DNA of 64,000 nt from Methanomassiliicoccales archaeon LGM-RCC1 (GTDB lineage Archaea > Thermoplasmatota > Thermoplasmata > Methanomassiliicoccales > Methanomethylophilaceae). A model generated the notes under the pieces. That model did no database searches. It saw only the letters and a program-made list of their open reading frames with translations, and was not told the DNA's origin. The first letter of the stretch is position 1. The number at the start of each line of letters is the position of its first letter. Position numbers and translations under genes: made by a program. Location of the stretch: the NCBI GenBank assembly GCA_030168575.1, contig CP115555.1, positions 186,001-250,000 of the forward strand, read 5' to 3'. Positions 28,484-38,767 of this stretch are shown here, piece after piece.

Positions 28484-28595
28484 CCCCACTTAGCTCAGAC
28501 TGGCTAGAGCGGCTGACTGTAGAGTGTTTTCGGTAAAACCCGATACAGCCGCTGAAATCAGCAGGTCCCCTGTTCAAATCAGGGAGTGGGGACCA
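28484..28595 (+). tRNA. tRNA-Tyr(GTA) with a 34-nt intron and encoded CCA
   Basis: Acceptor stem CCCCACT (28484-28490) pairs with AGTGGGG (28585-28591); C1-G72 is the archaeal tRNA-Tyr identity pair. D arm GCTC...GAGC, anticodon stem GCTGA/TCAGC, anticodon GTA at 28519-28521, T arm CCCTG-TTCAAAT-CAGGG. The intron occupies about 28523-28556 at the canonical 37/38 site. Discriminator A28592 and CCA 28593-28595 are encoded. Its last bases double as the left attachment repeat of the integrated element. Confidence 0.93.
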
Positions 28596-28617
28596 TCCTT
28601 ATCCAGCATCCCCGGAA
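28577..28617 (+). repeat. Left attachment repeat (attL) in the tRNA-Tyr 3' end
   Basis: The first 20 bases AATCAGGGAGTGGGGACCAT are identical to 38727-38746. Identity resumes after three mismatches (TATCCAGCATC), then two mismatches and CGGAA: 36 of 41 positions. It covers the T-stem/acceptor 3' half, CCA and flanking bases, so integration leaves the tRNA intact. Confidence 0.88.
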
Positions 28618-28701
28618 AGTGCGATTTTCGGGTTTTCGCAATTCACAGCGTTAAGTCGATTTCTATTCCTATCGGAATATTACCTATCTGGAGGGGTTCT
28701 C

Positions 28702-29751
28702 GTGTCGGTTTTTGACACGATGGACCGCGGGGAGCTGCAGAAGAAAGTGCTCTCCGGAGAGATCGATGCAGACTGCCTGTTGAAGGATCTCATCGAATGG
28801 GTGACCCTTGTCTACTACAACCTTTTTGCCAACCTCGATACGGGAGAGCACCGTGCCTGCCCTGTATCGAGGAGAGGCAATGCCGCGTATGCTTTACGTC
28901 AGTCTTTCAAGAAATCTATGTTAGCTAAACTGATCAAGAAATCTACCATCTCTGAACAAACCTCTTCCGGCATCTTCTCACATCTTCTCTTCATGACCCT
29001 GACCATCGACCATAATGTCATGTCCCGTGATGAGGCTAACAGGTTCATCACTGCCAAAGGCAAGGGCATCAGCAGGTTCTTTGCACGTCTGGAGAAGGCC
29101 TTGGACGACGGTTACTCGAAGGTGATTGTCAAAGAGTCCACTACATCCGGCTATCCGGCTGTGCATATCATCCTCCACTTGGACAGGCCTCTAAAGATAA
29201 AATGGCACGAGAAGAGCCATTCCTATCGTCCAGATCCGTCGGATCCGTACACACGTTCCATCCTTTCCAAACTAAAGAATCTGGATGATTGGAACTCTAA
29301 GAGCCCCATCTGGGGTGTCGGTTTCGTGGACATCTACGGTTTCACAAATGACCGTCTCCAGATGAAGAGCTACTCCAACCCGATAAACTACATCGCCAAA
29401 TACATCTCTAAGTCGCTTGATCTTCAGGACATCCCCGACCTTGATAAGTACGAGAGGGTGTCGGAGCTGCCGGAGAAATACCGCACGAAGATCTGGACGG
29501 TCCTGAACAACCTCATTTGGAACTCCCAGACTTGGGTCATCTCCAAGTCGTTCAGAGAGGACCTCAAGAAGATAAAGGAGAAGATCGAGAAACTGAAATC
29601 CCGCTGGATGTACGTCGATACGGTCTCTGTCGACAATCCAAGGCTCTACACATGGATGGATTGGGCCCTCGATAATCTCCCCCCAGACATTCAATTGGCA
29701 TTGCGTATCAGACCTGATATCGTGCCGTCCAAAAAGCTCGTGATAATGTGA
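28702..29751 (+). CDS. Probable rolling-circle replication initiator (Rep, HUH-like)
   Basis: The 349-aa protein shows three segments in the order of rolling-circle Rep motifs: LLFMTLTID near residue 95 (motif I, FxTLT), AVHIILHLDRPL near 155 (motif II position, but spaced H-x3-H rather than H-x-H), and NPINYIAKYISKS near 230 (motif III YxxKYxxK with candidate nucleophile tyrosines). Start is GTG 28702 with the Shine-Dalgarno-like GGAGGGG. Next to attL and upstream of a hairpin-rich block that could be its origin. The family match is inferred from motifs only, and the atypical motif II leaves room for doubt. Confidence 0.68.
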   Translation: MSVFDTMDRGELQKKVLSGEIDADCLLKDLIEWVTLVYYNLFANLDTGEHRACPVSRRGNAAYALRQSFKKSMLAKLIKKSTISEQTSSGIFSHLLFMTLTIDHNVMSRDEANRFITAKGKGISRFFARLEKALDDGYSKVIVKESTTSGYPAVHIILHLDRPLKIKWHEKSHSYRPDPSDPYTRSILSKLKNLDDWNSKSPIWGVGFVDIYGFTNDRLQMKSYSNPINYIAKYISKSLDLQDIPDLDKYERVSELPEKYRTKIWTVLNNLIWNSQTWVISKSFREDLKKIKEKIEKLKSRWMYVDTVSVDNPRLYTWMDWALDNLPPDIQLALRIRPDIVPSKKLVIM

Positions 29752-29756
29752 TACCC

Positions 29757-30224
29757 ATGCGTTACAAGATAAAATCTCAGACATTGATCTCCAATGTCCT
29801 CAGCCACCTCTATCAGGCGATCCTGTTCATCTATTCAGATTTCAAATGCGGACTCCTGTACTCCATTCTGGTAATTGGTGAGAAACTGTACATTTTCGGT
29901 TACAGCCATTACAATGCTTATAGGAACAGAATCGAGGATATCAGAGAACATACGTACTACATGAAGGACGGATATGGCAGAAGATACAAGATCTTCCGTC
30001 ACCCCAGCTCCTTTTTCGATCCGATCAATTACCGCCCTAGTCTGCCCTTCCGTCACCGCAAACGATCGGACCTCAGACACACCATACTTCTATCCCAATC
30101 AATACGGGCGGGCCACGCGGCGGCGAAGCCCCGTCGCCCCTTGGGGCAGGGGCGACGACGTGTGGACGGCACGTATGGCGGCGGGCTCACGCGAAGCGTG
30201 GCCGAAGGCGGCCCGCCGCGTTGA
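29757..30224 (+). CDS. Hypothetical protein downstream of Rep (3' end runs into hairpin block)
   Basis: I do not recognise this protein. It starts six bases after the Rep stop. The first about 115 residues look plausible: one hydrophobic segment near residues 20-45 (including GLLYSILVIGEKLYIFGY), then a basic tyrosine-rich part. The last about 40 residues are Arg/Gly/Pro-rich and are simply the translation of the GC-rich inverted repeats from 30108 on, so the true gene may be shorter, or the frame may be only fortuitously open. Confidence 0.4.
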   Translation: MRYKIKSQTLISNVLSHLYQAILFIYSDFKCGLLYSILVIGEKLYIFGYSHYNAYRNRIEDIREHTYYMKDGYGRRYKIFRHPSSFFDPINYRPSLPFRHRKRSDLRHTILLSQSIRAGHAAAKPRRPLGQGRRRVDGTYGGGLTRSVAEGGPPR

Positions 30225-30357
30225 GCCCCGGCCCCGAAGCTTCGCCGTAGGGGACGTGGGCGAAACCTCGACATTCGCGTTGCCGAGCGCAGCGAAGGCA
30301 ACGGGAATGGAGAGCATACGACCCGGACGAGCGAAGCTCGGACGGGGAAGTATGCAT
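30108..30357 (+). other. GC-rich block of mini-hairpins, candidate replication origin or structured RNA
   Basis: About 250 very GC-rich bases inside AT-rich DNA, almost wholly foldable. Seen: CGTCGCCCC/GGGGCGACG (30132-30140/30149-30157); GCGGCGGGC/GCCCGCCGC (30178-30186/30211-30219) enclosing two side hairpins CACGC-GAA-GCGTG (30188-30200) and GCC-GAA-GGC (30201-30209); CGTTGCC/GGCAACG (30278-30284/30297-30303); GCATAC/GTATGC (30314-30319/30350-30355) enclosing CGAGC-GAA-GCTCG (30328-30340). The heptamer GCGAAGC, an exceptionally stable single-stranded DNA hairpin, occurs three times. Placed right after Rep, it suggests a rolling-circle origin or a structured RNA. Confidence 0.65.
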
Positions 30358-30857
30358 AGACTTGATGAAGATAACCAAAGTTGAAACCTGACTCGACCAC
30401 ATTAGCTGTGATGTTTGAGTGATTAAAGGTTATCTAAATCTGTTACACCGGCCGTTATGTACTACCATTTCTTAGACTACTATCAGAACTCGTCACGTTT
30501 ATCCAAGAATGGATGACAGCGGAAATCTTCAAGCTTATTTCTGTAAGGGTATAGGAGACTTAGGCGCGCGAATGTGAAACGATATATTCTTATCTTCTTA
30601 CCAGCCGACAACATGACGAATGCTTGGATCAACAAATCGTTCTTTATGATTGTACAGTACCCTGATCGATCTTCTTTGAACTTTATGGAACAGATGCTAC
30701 AGCCAATGAGTCCCTGGAAAGTTAAATAAGAAAACCAGAGTTTCTACATATGTTTATATAATGATGGAGAATTTAACGGGTATATTCAGACAGGGTTTTA
30801 ATCCAGCCCCATATGGTTGGTAGACCCCAGAAAATGTTTGATGAAAACCTGTATTAG
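30358..30857. other. AT-rich stretch between hairpin block and surface-protein gene
   Basis: No convincing large gene. It holds one possible 38-aa ORF (30613-30729) and, near its end, the promoter of the surface-protein gene: TTTATATA at 30753-30760, about 104 bases before the start. Confidence 0.5.
30613..30729 (+). CDS. Possible 38-aa ORF, unknown
   Basis: ATG to TAA reading MTNAWINKSFFMIVQYPD then a methionine-rich tail. No recognisable family, no clear ribosome-binding site. Listed only because the surrounding 500 bases are otherwise empty; it may be chance or a remnant. Confidence 0.15.
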   Translation: MTNAWINKSFFMIVQYPDRSSLNFMEQMLQPMSPWKVK

Positions 30858-30863
30858 GTGATC

Positions 30864-33800
30864 ATGTTGAAGACAGATTCAAAAAAGGCATTGATGGCAG
30901 TCATTATGGTGTCTATGATGCTGATAGTACCATTGTCCGTGGTCCAGTGGGACCAGACAGATAACGGGGGGGGACTCGATCTTTCAGCCTTCCCTGTAAC
31001 AGATAGAAGCAATAAGAAAATAAGCATTATCGGAGACAGCATCTCCACTTTGAGCACCCATAACAAACAGGGCAACGCGATTTATTATAACGCTAACGGA
31101 CCCAACCAAATCAGCATCAATACGATGTGGTGGGGGCGTCTTATAAAGGATTGGAATAACGGGTCGGAAGGATGGGAAAACAATCTTCTTGTCAATAATT
31201 CATACAGTGGATCCACGGTTGCCAACGGTACTTCTCCGAGGGCCAACCAAACCGTAGTAAATGACCTGTCGAACGGTACATCGAATCCCGATATCGTTCT
31301 GATCTTCGTTGGTACCAACGATTACAATAGAAACAGAAGTGCAACGATCGGAGACGTCGATGGTGATTCGTTGGCAACATACATCGCACAGGATCTTGTA
31401 GGAGGTTCCTCTAGGACATCCTATGACAATATCGCTCAGGCATACACTCTGATGTTGAAGAGAGTCATAGATAAATATCAGACTCCAGGTGATAATCTGG
31501 AGATCATATGTCTCCTGCCTTTTACAGAACCGGCACAGATACAGAAGGGCGTCCACTACGGCAACAATGAAAACGCGACAGGGTTCTACAGGGATACGTT
31601 CAACGATGGGTTGGAAGCCATATGCAAGTACATGAAGACCTATCACGGTACTCACGGCACAGGGAATAACGACATCAAATGTATTGACATGTCCAAATGC
31701 GGTCTGCCGGAGAGATTTACCAAGGCATCGGCCGATTATTTTGTTGATGGAGGAGATTACATGAATTACAGTGTGAGGTCCCTGCATCCGAACAACGCTG
31801 GATTTGAGCTGATGTTCAACTACATCAAACAAGAACTCGAAGGAACGTATTCAAAGCATTCATCCAATGCAATCCCCAAGGGCACAGACTATCTATATAG
31901 GATAGATTTCGACAAAAACGGAAATAACATTACCAACGTTTTGGAGTCCCATCATGTTGGAAGTGCATACACGTCATTGGAAAGCAAATACCGTGTTGCA
32001 AAGGATGGTCCGAATTCCAGTAATTCATCCACTGGAAACAGTAGCTAGAGTATCAATGCTTTTTGGGATTTCGATCCCGATACCGGTCTGGGGCCGTTCA
32101 ATTCGTTTTACGCAGCGATCAACATCAAGGATTCCAACTATGGCAATCCTGACGATTCTAAGGAACTCAGACTGAACGACAAGAAGGGAACAGTGGCATA
32201 TGTGTTGGACCCGTACAACTTGAAGAAGACCCTTAAAGGGATGATGTTTTCCACGGACCTTTACAACGTTATGCTTGTGATTCCGACCGTCTATTGGAAA
32301 TCGGTAGGAGTTGATGGCGAAGGACATGAAGTGAGCCCAGACGGCGCTTTGGCCTCATGTTCGGAATATCGGCTGTATCTTTCGAACAAACAGTCATATA
32401 CTCCAAATGGTGGAGATGAAGTCACGGGCATGCACGCAAACGGCCATACCGATGGATATGGTAACACAGGAAATGTGAAGCCATATATCGCCATAGGGGT
32501 CTATGAAGCATATGCCACATCAGACTCAGAGTTGGTGTCGCAGAGTGGCAAAGTGCCTACTGTCAACAAGACATTGGCAGAATTCAAGACCCTAGCCGGT
32601 AATAACAACACAAATATTGGTAACACAGGATCATACTCACTTTGGGGTTACGACCAATGGCAGTTGTACAAGATGATGGCATTTACCATCATGGGTACCG
32701 AGAACGCCCAAGGAATGATCGGTCGCGGATTGGCCACCGGTTCGTTCAATAGCGGATTCAGATCAGAAACAGGAACAGTGGATACCGCGGGAAGTTATTT
32801 CGGAACATATCTTGTTGAGCCCAGCAGGACCACCGCATCCAAGCTGCTACTGGAGAACACCTGGGGAAGCGTAGCCGAATTCCTTGGGGACGTGAAAGGA
32901 ACATACCATGATTCAAAATATCGTTTAGTGTTTGAAGCAGAAGAGATAACAGCAGAAAAAATCATAGAGAGTTTCAATAACGCGACGAGTGGATGGTATT
33001 CTAAAACATGGCTCAGAGATAATCCCCTCTGGGGTTGCTTGGGTTGGTTCGATACAGGAAATTACACCGGGGCGGATGACCAGATGTCCTTGGATATAAG
33101 TGGTGACAGAATAGCTATATCCTCACCTCAAACCGATAAATCAGTCCGTGTCGGAGGAGCACATAACACCACGGGTAACCGTGCCGGACTCAGCACCCTA
33201 TGGATGGATTCGGTCATATCAGAAGCGGATTCGATTACCGGCTCGCGCATCATGTATCTGATGGATGCGGCAGCCGTTGAGGTGAAGGTCAGTGTTTCAA
33301 CAACACATGTGGAAACCGCTAGTTTGGCAGTTACCAAGAAAGTTGGTTCGGACACACCGACTAATGTGGCGGATCCGATCTATGTAGGAAATGATGCAAC
33401 TCTTGCGATGGTTGATAACAATATGACCATCACTGATGGCGATACCGTATACACATACACAGTAACCCCTGCCTCCGGAAAGTCGTTCAATTACTTCATG
33501 GACGAACTCAATGACAGAATCCAGGTTAGCGGAAAGGTCAGGTCGATGGTCCTGAAAGCCGTTTGCGGTACACCTGAAGTCGTTTCCGTCATACAGGCCG
33601 CCGGAGGAACCTTGACGATACATTATAGAAGCGATGCGACCGTGACTCCGGGAACTTCCGAGTATTCTGTCCAGGACAATGTGCTTACGATATCGACTGG
33701 TAATAACATCAATCTGACGGTCACGGCCACACCTAACAACGGCGTCCATTTCGGTATGTTCCTGGTGGGGCCTTCGAATGCAATGGTTCCTCAGACAAAT

Positions 33801-36143
33801 ACAGATTCGGTGGCTATCACGGACGCTTATACTAAGGATAACCCCTTGACGATAACCGCGGCCTTCGTTAACTACGTCTACGCTTTCAAAGGCGATGATT
33901 ACACCATCAGCTACGTTTCGAAATCAGGAACACAGACAATCTCCAACGGCAGTGTTACGAACGAGTCACCGATCCCGGTCGTCTATCAGACCGGTACCGT
34001 CGAATTGACGATAACAGCTGAAGACAATCATCTAATCAATAAGGTCTATGCCGGGATAACAGAATTGACCGAATCCGCTAACAAATACACAGTAGGTCCA
34101 TTGACTTCCGACACTTACGTTACGGTCCTGACCGATAATGACAATACTGTAACTTTCACAAGAGACAGTGTGAAGATCGAAACCGAGCATGAGGCTAGCA
34201 ATCTCTATCTGCCGACCGAAGTGGTCGTCACTCCTATCGATAACCTTACAGACGGAGTCCTTGAGAGTATCAAGAACAGGGCTTCACTGAGCGTTGCGAT
34301 CCTTGGAAAGTCGGACGTCCGCTTGAACGTCCCCACGGTGCAAACAGTCCCCATTCCGGTGGCGGCATTGACATTATTCAAGGGATCTAACGGAGACCTG
34401 TATATCGATTCCCTCAATGCGAACCTGGTATTCACCAGAGCTGCACTATCGGATATCGGAGAAGCTATCGAAGCGGGAGTGGGCGATAATTCGATCATGA
34501 TCGATCAAAATTCGGCGCTGTCGGTATCTGCGATTTCGACCAGTGCGCCTGAGGCATATTCTTCTTTGATACCTCATAGCCAAGTCTTCAATATCGATGT
34601 GGCGGTGGTCACGGATACCGTCACCTATCACATCACATCAGAACTCGGATCGCCTATGACGATAGAGCTGGACCCGACAGCCGGTTATAGCAAATATTCC
34701 ATACGTTACCTGGACGGAACAGGGGGCATGGAGAGGCTGCATTCCAGCAACTGTACCTTCGATGCAACCCTCTTCGGCCTGTATGCGATCGTTGAGGAAT
34801 ATACCGTGCGTTTCGATACGGCCGGTCTGGTTCTCAAAGATAGCGTCAACGTGGCGAGAGATTCTACTCTGGATCCCGGCTCGCTGATGGCTGCCGGCTA
34901 CACATTCGCCGGATGGTATAAGGATCCGACATTCGACACTCCCTGGAGCGAGCAGAGTATCGTGTCCGTGGACAATATGACGCTATATGCCAAGTGGAAC
35001 GTCTGGACCCTGACCGTTACGTTCGAACCGGGTACAGGATCAGGTACCATGGAACAACAGACAATCAGGTACAGCGATGGAAGCAGGACCTTGAATCCCA
35101 ATGCTTTCACGAAAACCGGTTACGTGTTCGACCATTGGACTTCCGATACCGAAGAGACGTACGATGACAGGGCCGACATGTCGGAACTGATCCTTGCGGT
35201 CGATTCAGAGATCACTCTCGCAGCCGAATGGAGAAAAGCCCCCGTGCCGCCGTCACCCGTCAACCCCAATATCTACGAGGCGGTCAGCGACGACGGGGAA
35301 TTCAGCGACAAAGAGGTGTCCTCCATCATCTCGCAGATGAAGAACATCGCATCCTATAGCAAGACGCCGATTCTGAACGTCACCGCAGAAGGGCGGATCC
35401 ATCTGACATCGGAGCTGTTCGACGCCATGATCAATTACGGTGCGAAGTTGGTGTTCAAGGACAAGAATGTGACCATAGACGTTCCCTCTAAGACTCTGGC
35501 CGGTATAGGCAAAGGAAAGGATGCAATCCTCATGGTGGACACCAAGGACATATCGGAGGTCTACGTCCTGAAGGACAGGGACGGTGAGGTCTACGACATA
35601 ACCCTGGTGGTCAACGGTCAGACCTACAAGGAACTATTCGCCGAGCCTATAGACATCTCCATCATATGTGACGACCTGAAGGATGTCGACAAGGATCTCA
35701 CGGAGCTGTTCTACGTCAATGGTTCCGTACTGGAGAAGGTGGACATTACCAAATTCGGCGATATGGTCTGGTTCTCGGCTCCGCATCTGAGCCGTTACGC
35801 CCTCGTGTACGATAGAGGCGCCACAGTGTCTGTGAACATAAGCGGCGGAACGGTATCCGACCCCGGGGACGGATGGAAGTACAGCGGCGGATACTACTCG
35901 AAGAAGTTCGCGGTCGGCTCCACCGTGACGGAGATACTGGACGACCTGGGATCAATAAGCAAATCCTGGTCCGTCAGGATGGGTCAAAGCTCCACATCCG
36001 ACGTGTTGGAAGAGGGCGGGATGACCATCGTAGTGAAGTGGGTGTCCCTCGCGGACATCCTCCTCGTGATCTTTGTGGTCATCGTCGCGATCCTCCTGCT
36101 CTTCATAACCTTCTACCGGAAGGGAACCGGTCGGAGGAGCTGA
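30864..36143 (+). CDS. Giant secreted surface protein: SGNH hydrolase + in-frame amber + lectin-like and InlB-type repeats + C-terminal anchor
   Basis: Read through one TAG (codon 395), the frame encodes 1759 residues. Residues 7-28 are a signal/anchor segment. Residues 50-325 are an SGNH/GDSL esterase: GDS with S59, GTND at 150-153, H308 in SLHPN. After the amber, residues about 440-790 resemble an FGE/C-type-lectin fold (ENTWGSVAEFLGD; RVGGAHNTTGNRAGLS; GSRIMYL). Beta-rich repeats follow, then two InlB/Flg_new-type repeats at about 1312-1459 (AGYTFAGWYKDPTF, LYAKWNVW). A membrane helix lies at about 1728-1751 with a KGTGRRS tail. Without readthrough only the SGNH part (394 aa, unanchored) is made. 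Adhesin-like proteins of gut methanogens share such repeats. Start ATG 30864; GTG 30858 is possible. Confidence 0.8.
32046..32048 (+). other. In-frame TAG, candidate pyrrolysine codon
   Basis: The only TAG ending a long frame in the window. It falls in a serine/asparagine linker (STGNSS before, SINAFWDFDPDTG after). The frame then stays open without another stop to 36143, with no start codon before the GTG at 32193, while clearly protein-like sequence begins immediately after the TAG. Confidence 0.65.
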
Positions 36144-36155
36144 GACCGCAAAAAC

Positions 36156-36186
36156 ATCCGGACGGCTGAGGTTGGGCCGTCCGGAT
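36156..36186 (+). terminator. Stem-loop terminator of the surface-protein gene
   Basis: A perfect 11-bp inverted repeat, ATCCGGACGGC (36156-36166) and GCCGTCCGGAT (36176-36186), 13 bases after the stop. Confidence 0.65.
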
Positions 36187-36210
36187 ATCAAACCTCTTCC
36201 CGAAACCGTG

Positions 36211-36270
36211 ACGGATCGGCTGCATGGTAGTTGCCGTAACAGCTCATGGGCCATGGACATCTTTTTGAGT
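36211..36270 (-). pseudogene. 3' remnant of a third DUF3800 gene
   Basis: Minus-strand codons read KKMSMAHE, matching the C-termini KKVSFAHE and EKISIAHE of the two DUF3800 genes nearby. The following bases keep the hairpin spacing of those copies (GGCTGC 36218-36223, GTTGCC 36230-36235, CTCATGGG 36243-36250), but the outer 5' arm and the stop codon are lost. The rest of the gene is gone, replaced upstream by the second copy. Confidence 0.6.
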
Positions 36271-36274
36271 TTAC

Positions 36275-36358
36275 TTTAAATACGACTGTGCCGATAAATC
36301 ATTATCCCGATAAGACCCATGAGTCGGCTGCTGGAGTGTGGCCATTACGGCTCATGGG
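36275..36358 (+). ncRNA. Candidate antisense hairpin RNA at the 3' end of DUF3800 (copy 1)
   Basis: TATA box TTTAAATA at 36275-36282. A 43-nt hairpin at 36316-36358: outer stem CCCATGAG/CTCATGGG, internal loop TC/ATTACGG, inner stem GGCTGC/GTGGCC with two G-U wobbles, loop TGGAGT. The transcript would start near 36305 and be antisense to the last codons and stop of the DUF3800 gene. Spacing and architecture are identical in the copy at 38895-38979. Confidence 0.5.
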
Positions 36359-36940
36359 CGAAGGATACCTTCTTCGCTATCAGCTCGTAATAACTGTCCT
36401 CGTTCGATTCGTACTTAGAACGGATGGAACCTGCGACGAAATCCGCCAGCTGGACACATTTATTGTCATGTGACTGGACTTTCTTTACGGCCTTTATATT
36501 GCGTCCTTCGAGTCCCTGTTTCGCAATTTCGGACAGATCCCCTATTGATACGCCAAGGTTCTGGTCGAAATGGAATATCACATCCCTGGTCTCAAGCGCA
36601 TCATTGACCAGAGGCATCAACAGTCTGACAGCTTCTTTGTATAGTCTCTTCCCACGGACATCCATGTAGCCATCGGAATCCTTATCGATGCATACATAGA
36701 CTATGTTCAACGGCAGCCGACAAGCGATTCCAGAATCTCTTCCTTTTCATCCATGAATGAATTATAGAATTTGATCTCATGACCGGGCTTGAACGACTTC
36801 CTCCTGTTCTTGACCAAATCAATGGTCTTGAAGGCTGGCTTCAGGTCCCTGACACGTCTTGATACGATTGCGGCCATTATGAAGAATCTATCCTCCGAGC
36901 CCAGATTGCCGGATTCGTCTATGGCCACTATCGAAGTCAT
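36345..36940 (-). pseudogene. DUF3800-family gene split by a frameshift
   Basis: The N-terminal part (36940-36707, SIVAIDESGNLGSEDRFF with the DESGN motif) and C-terminal part (36710-36345, NIVYVCIDKDSDGY onward) are in different frames. Together they match the intact 200-aa DUF3800 protein at 38966-39568 end to end. The shift is near 36710, where the upstream frame ends LVGCR-TGA and the next opens with TTG overlapping the stop. DUF3800 proteins have an RNase-H-like fold and are frequent in mobile and defence loci; activity is unknown. A coupled two-piece protein or programmed shift is possible, but I see no clear slippery site. Confidence 0.72.
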
Positions 36941-36949
36941 CTTATCCCG

Positions 36950-37486
36950 TCACTGAACAGGCTTCTCCTTGTTCCTGATCATCTCGCGGATCCTGTCCAC
37001 TTCGCCCTTGATGTCGCTGGATTTCAGGAAATCTTCGATCTTCTTTTCATGACATAGTATATCGCGCTGGCTCGCGAAGAAATACATCAACGCTATCTTG
37101 ATGAAATCCTGATGGTTCTTGAACTGCCTGGTCCTCTCGATGACCCTGTTCATCTGCTCCAGCAGCATATATGGGAAGACCACCAGGATGCTTATGCTGT
37201 CCCTGCCCATCTTCGCAGTGGCTTCGTAGTCCTCACGGATGGTCTCGATGTAGCTTTCCAGCTCTTCGTAGTAGACCGCCTGGCCCACTTCCCTTGATAC
37301 CTTGCGTTCCTCCACCGCATCGAGAATGAGCATCTCCCTCGTGCATATCTCCGTGTAGAACTTGCGGCATGCATCGACCACGACGTCCGGACGAGATGCA
37401 TGGGTGCTGCCTGCGAAGGCATCCATGGATCTGCACATATTATCGGTGACCCTAATCATTATGCGCGTTTTGGCCTCTTCACCCAT
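36950..37486 (-). CDS. Ribbon-helix-helix DNA-binding regulator of the element
   Basis: A 178-aa protein. Residues about 7-45 (TRIMIRVTDNMCRSMDAF, SRPDVVVDACRKFY) fit a ribbon-helix-helix domain of the CopG/NikR type, and the rest is helical with no recognised ligand domain. Divergent from the 40-aa ORF and integrase, with a perfect 9-bp inverted repeat between them. Likely autoregulates and controls integration. No NikR-type metal histidine/cysteine pattern is evident. Confidence 0.7.
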   Translation of the reverse strand: MGEEAKTRIMIRVTDNMCRSMDAFAGSTHASRPDVVVDACRKFYTEICTREMLILDAVEERKVSREVGQAVYYEELESYIETIREDYEATAKMGRDSISILVVFPYMLLEQMNRVIERTRQFKNHQDFIKIALMYFFASQRDILCHEKKIEDFLKSSDIKGEVDRIREMIRNKEKPVQ

Positions 37487-37576
37487 GTAATCCCTCGCTA
37501 ACTATCTATTTCAATATGATAATGGATTGATTTACTTTTAAACCAGATGTCTAGTATAAACTAACTTTATATATGC

Positions 37577-37602
37577 ATTTTGTAATCTATCACTTACAAA
37601 AT
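37577..37602. promoter_or_regulatory. Operator-like inverted repeat upstream of the integrase operon
   Basis: ATTTTGTAA (37577-37585) and TTACAAAAT (37594-37602) form a perfect 9-bp inverted repeat with an 8-base spacer. It sits between TTTATATATG (a TATA box at about 37566-37575) and the Shine-Dalgarno AGGAGG at 37605-37610, where a bound repressor would block initiation. Confidence 0.7.
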
Positions 37603-37619
37603 ATAGGAGGTTAAAAGTC

Positions 37620-37742
37620 ATGGTTTACATGGACGAATGGGAATACCATCTCTGGTTAGAACTGCACAAGAACGAACTTACGGCCTTACCTGAGGACGAT
37701 CAAACCGCTTCTCAGGAGGTGCCTTTAGAGGAGGAGCCCTGA
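37620..37742 (+). CDS. 40-aa acidic ORF before integrase (possible excisionase or regulator)
   Basis: Starts ATG 37620 behind a strong AGGAGG, ends TGA 37740-37742, and the integrase ATG follows with no gap. The product (MVYMDEWEYHLWLELHKNE start, acidic end QEVPLEEEP) matches no family I know. The strong ribosome site and tight coupling argue that it is translated; an excisionase or DNA mimic role is a guess. Confidence 0.6.
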   Translation: MVYMDEWEYHLWLELHKNELTALPEDDQTASQEVPLEEEP

Positions 37743-38717
37743 ATGACCACCAGGATCTCGACTCCCGAAAGATGTATCGAGAAGTACATCAGGGAGAACA
37801 AGAAGAGCTCCAAGACGGAAACGTACGACCAGTACAGGACCGTCCTGACCAAGATGGCTAGGGACCTCGAAGCAGCCGGTTTCGACCCTCTGCCATACTA
37901 CGTAACGGAAAAGGCCGTCAGATACCTTCTGGATGAAATCTGGAAGGATCTCGAGGTCTCGACCAGGAAGTGGCATACACACATTTTCTCAAGGTATCTC
38001 CGCTTCTTCGGAAACAATGTGATCGTCAGCATGGATATTCGCTGGCCCCAAGACATGCGCCCCAACGTGGATTGGCTTACCGATCCTGAGCAGCAGAAGC
38101 TTCTGAACGCACCCAAGACCATCCTCGAAGAGGCTGTGATACACTTCGAGCTCAACCTCGGACTCCGTATCGCGGAGGTCTGCAATCTCAAGCTCGACTG
38201 CATCAACTACAGGATGAGGACGGTTGAGGTCCTCGGAAAGGGTCACGGAGAGGGCAAATGGAGATCCGTTCCTTTCAGTGAGGACACGGAGGACGTCCTG
38301 AGAAGATGGATGGAAGAGCGTCAGAGGCTCGTGGACCGCGTGAGGGCATTCAACCCCTTATGGCAGGATCCAGGCAACGTTTTCATCTGGTGCCACTACA
38401 AGTACAAACCCCAGGCCGGAGCCTACTCCGATAGGGGTCACAGCCTCGACCGCGGAGTTATACACATCGTGCGCGACCGCCTCGGAGTGGAGTTCACCAA
38501 CCACACCCTCAGGAGGACATTCGGCCGCACCATGTACCATGCCGGAGCGCCTATAGAATCGATCTCAAAGATACTCGGTCACGAGGACATCGTTACCACC
38601 CTGAAGTACCTCGGGATCAACCTCGACGACATGCAGGCCGCCATGGATCTGCACGGCGATTATCAGAAGAAGATTCGTATGGGAATATTCCAGAAAGGGG
38701 GTGTCCAGCGTGTTTAA
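37743..38717 (+). CDS. Tyrosine recombinase (integrase) of the tRNA-Tyr element
   Basis: Site-specific recombinase of 324 aa. N-terminal SAM-like core-binding domain about residues 5-105. The catalytic domain has R142 (LGLRIAEVCNLK), a lysine in the beta-hairpin near 166-172, H254 and R257 (NHTLRRTFG), H280 (LGHEDIVTT) and nucleophile Y289 (LKYLGIN), a complete set. It ends nine bases before attR and points toward it, as for elements whose attP adjoins int. Controlled probably by the divergent RHH protein. Confidence 0.93.
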   Translation: MTTRISTPERCIEKYIRENKKSSKTETYDQYRTVLTKMARDLEAAGFDPLPYYVTEKAVRYLLDEIWKDLEVSTRKWHTHIFSRYLRFFGNNVIVSMDIRWPQDMRPNVDWLTDPEQQKLLNAPKTILEEAVIHFELNLGLRIAEVCNLKLDCINYRMRTVEVLGKGHGEGKWRSVPFSEDTEDVLRRWMEERQRLVDRVRAFNPLWQDPGNVFIWCHYKYKPQAGAYSDRGHSLDRGVIHIVRDRLGVEFTNHTLRRTFGRTMYHAGAPIESISKILGHEDIVTTLKYLGINLDDMQAAMDLHGDYQKKIRMGIFQKGGVQRV

Positions 38718-38726
38718 TCCGTTCCC

Positions 38727-38767
38727 AATCAGGGAGTGGGGACCATTTCTATCCAGCATCTTCGGAA
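38727..38767 (+). repeat. Right attachment repeat (attR)
   Basis: Perfect 20-bp copy of the tRNA-Tyr 3' end (AATCAGGGAGTGGGGACCAT) followed by 16 further matching bases out of 21. It is not part of a second tRNA: no acceptor, D or anticodon arm precedes it. Confidence 0.88.

Follow-up and report, generated by a model that had tools for sequence, protein, structure and literature searches.

Does the TAG codon at 32046-32048 end the gene in which it lies, does it divide the output of that gene between two proteins, or is it read as an amino acid? The gene is found in the window analysed here, a stretch of 64,000 nucleotides (G000:C1:186001-250000) from a Methanomassiliicoccales genome of 1,664,211 bp that is assembled as a single contig with an estimated completeness of 98.8%. 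On retranslation, positions 30864-36143 of the forward strand formed one frame of 1759 residues whose sole internal stop is this TAG, at codon 395, just as the original prediction had described. The parts of the encoded protein are the following.

30864..32045, + strand: upstream part of 394 codons, with a signal-like N-terminus, an SGNH/GDSL-like domain and the start of domain 2 (Pfam and alignment)
Residues about 51-325: SGNH/GDSL-like domain (Pfam PF16255 and PF00657, above Pfam cut-offs)
31887..33266, + strand: domain 2, with the TAG inside it (20-homologue alignment, AlphaFold2, Foldseek match to 5vf4)
32046..32048, + strand: in-frame TAG, codon 395; TAT or TAC (Tyr) in two orthologues
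34800..35237, + strand: InlB-type repeats (Flg_new and Flg_new_2; Pfam)
36051..36143, + strand: C-terminal membrane segment with a basic tail, and the end of the frame on the TGA side (read from the translation)

Reading frame across the TAG

The next in-frame start past the TAG is GTG 32193, 144 bases beyond it. The 48 codons leading up to this GTG carry the conserved FWDFDPDTGLGPFNSFYAAIN, with residues that are invariant in 20 homologues, and coding potential persists in hexamer-based gene calls for 1364 codons past the TAG, without a second stop or a frameshift. Conserved sequence ahead of GTG 32193, together with coding potential of this length, indicates that the open frame past the TAG is not a matter of chance. 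The earlier observation that protein-like sequence resumes straight after the TAG thus held, as did the placement of a signal peptide upstream and an anchor downstream, since the translation has a hydrophobic signal-like stretch at its N-terminus and a membrane segment at its C-terminus.

The initiation signals were compared between the two ends of the interruption. Just 5' of ATG 30864, AGGTGATC is a good, Shine-Dalgarno-like match to the anti-Shine-Dalgarno sequence of 16S rRNA. At the first six starts past the TAG, the longest match to the anti-Shine-Dalgarno sequence is at most three bases, and an independent start past the TAG was dropped for lack of such a signal. It is extremely improbable, in our judgment, that two separate genes are present, with the second beginning at GTG 32193. 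A 1316-aa open frame does begin there, but it has no Shine-Dalgarno sequence, its product would lose invariant residues of domain 2 and would have no signal peptide, and the orthologues of the protein, which might have turned out to be pairs of genes, are single proteins.

Amber codons elsewhere in the genome

A gene for tRNA-Pyl (pylT) with the anticodon CTA (CUA) was found at 1.29 Mb, along with PylS, PylB, PylC and PylD, each above its curated cut-off. The search for pylTSBCD proposed with the original prediction therefore returned the full set, tRNA-Pyl and PylS included. Two mtmB genes adjoin the pyl locus and served as positive controls, each with the expected single in-frame TAG.

The behaviour of amber codons was surveyed in stretches that together make up 500 kb, or 30% of the genome; in this sample a simple hexamer gene caller yielded 507 genes. 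These calls replaced a scan for read-through by codon usage only, which was too noisy because neighbouring genes in the same frame mimic read-through. In the sample, 15 TAG-ended calls had usable scores, and nine of the 15 continue as coding past the TAG. Three of these nine genes encode methylamine methyltransferases (two mtmB and one mtbB, Dimeth_Pyl), and the six others encode a Na/Pi cotransporter with a PhoU domain that extends across the TAG, an OmdA-like protein, an IS110 transposase, two proteins of unknown function and the surface protein of the window. Among the cases listed, coding-like sequence before any start was present in 7 of 9 for TAG, 1 of 5 for TAA and 1 of 25 for TGA, the TGA cases listed being mostly neighbouring genes that start within a few codons. 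Nine of 441 confident genes were called as TAG-ended, six of these calls being the 5' portions of interrupted genes; the 500 kb sample thus has about three TAG codons that may be real stops, or ~0.7% of the confident genes. The frame at L049:801-1968 (G000:C1 about 664801-665968) ends in a TAG that is among the few candidates for a true stop, the extension past it being 11 codons; this frame encodes a distant homologue, at 25% identity, of the Rep-like gene of the window described below. The six non-methyltransferase TAGs correspond to a density of six per 146,000 codons, which gives a roughly 7% chance of one in a gene of 1759 codons, so that the case in the window is unremarkable for a gene of this length.

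Six genomes of the genus share the position of the TAG in the Na/Pi cotransporter gene (L074-L079), and AAG, AAA, AGG or GAG (Lys, Arg or Glu) occupies this codon in outgroups. Past the TAG, dN/dS values are mostly 0.06-0.15, with dS near saturation; downstream values only are given, since the upstream ones were computed without gaps and were partly misaligned. Purifying selection past the amber over that divergence argues that ribosomes pass it routinely, and its retention across six genomes provides a comparative case for long-standing use of amber as a sense codon in the lineage. Of the relatives inspected for the OmdA-like gene, a single one (G009) shares the position of the TAG and the others have sense codons there, suggesting that ambers come and go. 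Since TAG 32046 is present in one genome only, long-term translation is shown for the Na/Pi gene, not for the gene in the window. Taken together, the TAG-interrupted genes, the rarity of TAG ends and the shared Na/Pi TAG under purifying selection show amber behaving as a sense codon here. With its pyl set and its interrupted genes, the genome evidently decodes UAG in genes outside methylamine metabolism, as had been supposed for the gene studied here.

The TAG site in orthologues and in the protein

Homologues were sought in 60 relatives. Two members of the same genus (G012 and G013) have orthologues to residues about 45-810, with 43-45% identity and a single uninterrupted frame. The codon aligned with TAG 32046 is TAT in one orthologue and TAC in the second, and the residues around it read STGN-P-[ED]-Y-D-V-N-R-FWDFDP; the homologue alignment suggested earlier thus places a sense codon at this site, and the TAG is not conserved. 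It is seen at codon 395 in this species alone, one base from the Tyr codons. Because both same-genus orthologues have Tyr, the ancestral residue at codon 395 is most simply taken to be Tyr. A sequence or assembly error, by which a Tyr codon was misread as TAG at one base, would fit this one-base distance from TAT and TAC. It runs against the single-contig, highly complete assembly and against the other in-frame TAGs of the genome, one of which was found independently in six genomes, and we put its probability a little below even the low one that we assign to a regulated switch.

In the SGNH/GDSL-like domain, GDS 57-59, G116, GTND 150-153 and HPN 308-310 are conserved, so that the Ser, Gly, Asn and His blocks of SGNH/GDSL hydrolases (PF16255, PF00657) are present. 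Those hydrolases usually have an Asp three residues before the His, in a DxxH motif, but it is missing in all three orthologues, where residue 305 is Arg or Pro. Domain 2 has a predicted fold similar to that of TaqVP, a DGR variable protein of the C-type-lectin type (Foldseek 5vf4, E 2e-5, probability 1.00, with moderate confidence in the model; AlphaFold2 mean pLDDT 69, pTM 0.79). In the 20-homologue alignment and the AlphaFold2 model, residue 395 lies at the end of a low-confidence loop within domain 2, past its first strands. Termination at the TAG, which is not at a domain boundary, would leave domain 2 as a stub. In the model, then, the TAG at residue 395 looks like a tolerated loop substitution, not a modular switch. 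In the G012 and G013 orthologues a membrane segment follows directly after domain 2, whereas the protein of the window has ~950 extra residues, including the InlB-type repeats, ahead of its anchor.

The original prediction had favoured a regulated switch, in which UAG splits the output into a released SGNH esterase and an anchored full-length form. The signal-bearing SGNH domain before the TAG and the anchor after it would suit such a switch. Nevertheless, the TAG is unconserved in orthologues and lies inside domain 2, ambers are also read in many unrelated genes, and no PYLIS-like or unusual RNA structure was found 3' of TAG 32046 (z -0.44). A switch is therefore very unlikely, and the other suggestion made at that time, that the amber is tolerated because the cell decodes it, fits better. 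We give equally little weight to the idea that read-through is incomplete, so that the cell would both release an SGNH protein of 394 residues and anchor a full-length adhesin whose pyrrolysine is exposed, in a ratio tracking Pyl supply.

The reading that we consider likely is that read-through of TAG 32046 yields a full-length, Pyl-containing protein. The gene would encode one exported, membrane-anchored adhesin-like protein, in which a Tyr codon would have become TAG by one base change in this species. This TAG would be read by tRNA-Pyl and PylS as pyrrolysine, like other in-frame ambers of the genome, and would be tolerated because it is so decoded. The presence of the pyl machinery and the way in which the other ambers behave lead us to infer that the TAG is translated, and efficiently so, with Pyl as residue 395. 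Some product may stop at residue 394, but it would then be a by-product, not a form made under regulation.

The element carrying the gene, and related proteins

The surface-protein gene lies among the following features.

28484..28592, + strand: intron-containing tRNA gene, probably for tRNA-Tyr (GUA), with the integration site at its 3' end (Rfam RF00005, 50 bits; anticodon read by eye)
28577..28617, + strand: left 41-nt direct repeat, attL-like, beginning in the 3' end of the tRNA gene
28702..29751, + strand: Rep-like gene (REP_ORF2-G2P; Pfam E 3e-7)
37743..38717, + strand: tyrosine integrase (Phage_integrase; Pfam E 2e-22)
38727..38767, + strand: right 41-nt direct repeat, attR-like, just past the integrase, 88% identical to the left repeat and 10,150 bp apart from it

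The 41-nt repeats, the tRNA 3' end, the Rep-like gene and the integrase suggest that an integrated Rep/integrase element of 10.15 kb (28577-38767) probably carries the surface-protein gene as cargo, and this status fits the patchy distribution of the gene. Carriage on a mobile element with such a distribution would also suit a recent nonsense mutation, which would make the gene a fresh pseudogene with a truncated 394-residue product only, as would a TAG specific to this species where orthologues have Tyr. We regard this as unlikely, though less so than a switch, since the genome decodes amber elsewhere and 1364 codons follow without a second stop or frameshift.

Proteins predicted to contain pyrrolysine outside methylamine metabolism have been described in related methanogens. 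In M. alvus, 16 Pyl proteins were predicted besides the methylamine methyltransferases, TAG accounts for 1.6% of stops, and a new in-frame amber was argued to be a stable mutation (Borrel 2014, PMC4153887); for ISO4-H5, in-frame amber was reported in 46 genes, including an adhesin-like gene (PMC5011839), and for ISO4-G1, 25 genes for Pyl proteins were reported (PMC4824259). In-frame amber outside methylamine metabolism, including in an adhesin-like gene, was thus already published in 2014-2016, and the gene in the window is a further example. It resembles the published cases in having amber where homologues have a sense codon, in a genome with a complete pyl operon and few TAG-ended genes, and differs from them as cargo of a Rep/integrase element with a site traceable to Tyr. 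MtmB, MtbB and MttB likewise have a single in-frame TAG and use the same tRNA-Pyl, but their TAG is conserved and the residue catalytic, whereas the TAG here is a change within a loop, present in a single genome. The present case adds a mobile-element-borne surface protein of a gut-type methanogen to the proteins expected to contain pyrrolysine. Gene prediction under table 11 will break up genes with an in-frame TAG. A code in which all TAG codons are Pyl reportedly received proteomic support in some archaea in a 2025 paper.

Beyond its fold, domain 2 is linked to DGR variable proteins by homologues that adjoin reverse transcriptases in several relatives. The gene in the window was considered as a DGR target because of its CLec-type fold and rejected: a search with the end of domain 2 gave no template repeat match, either to the template repeat (TR) of the genome or elsewhere, so the gene is not at present targeted by a DGR. 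The genome does contain a DGR at another locus, L038:852-2485 (G000:C1:1080852-1082485), with the following parts in L038 coordinates.

852-969: variable repeat (VR), at the 3' end of the target ORF
1168-1285: template repeat
1418-2485: reverse transcriptase ORF

The 22 differences between its TR and VR all fall on an A of the TR (31 A), and the 87 other positions have none. Our literature search turned up no publication that deals with DGRs in genomes of Methanomassiliicoccales. On G003:C7, G013:C27, G014:C1, G015:C1 and C2, and G016:C50, domain 2 homologues have reverse transcriptase genes no more than about 2 kb away, which suggests that DGRs diversifying a surface domain of this type are common in the genus.
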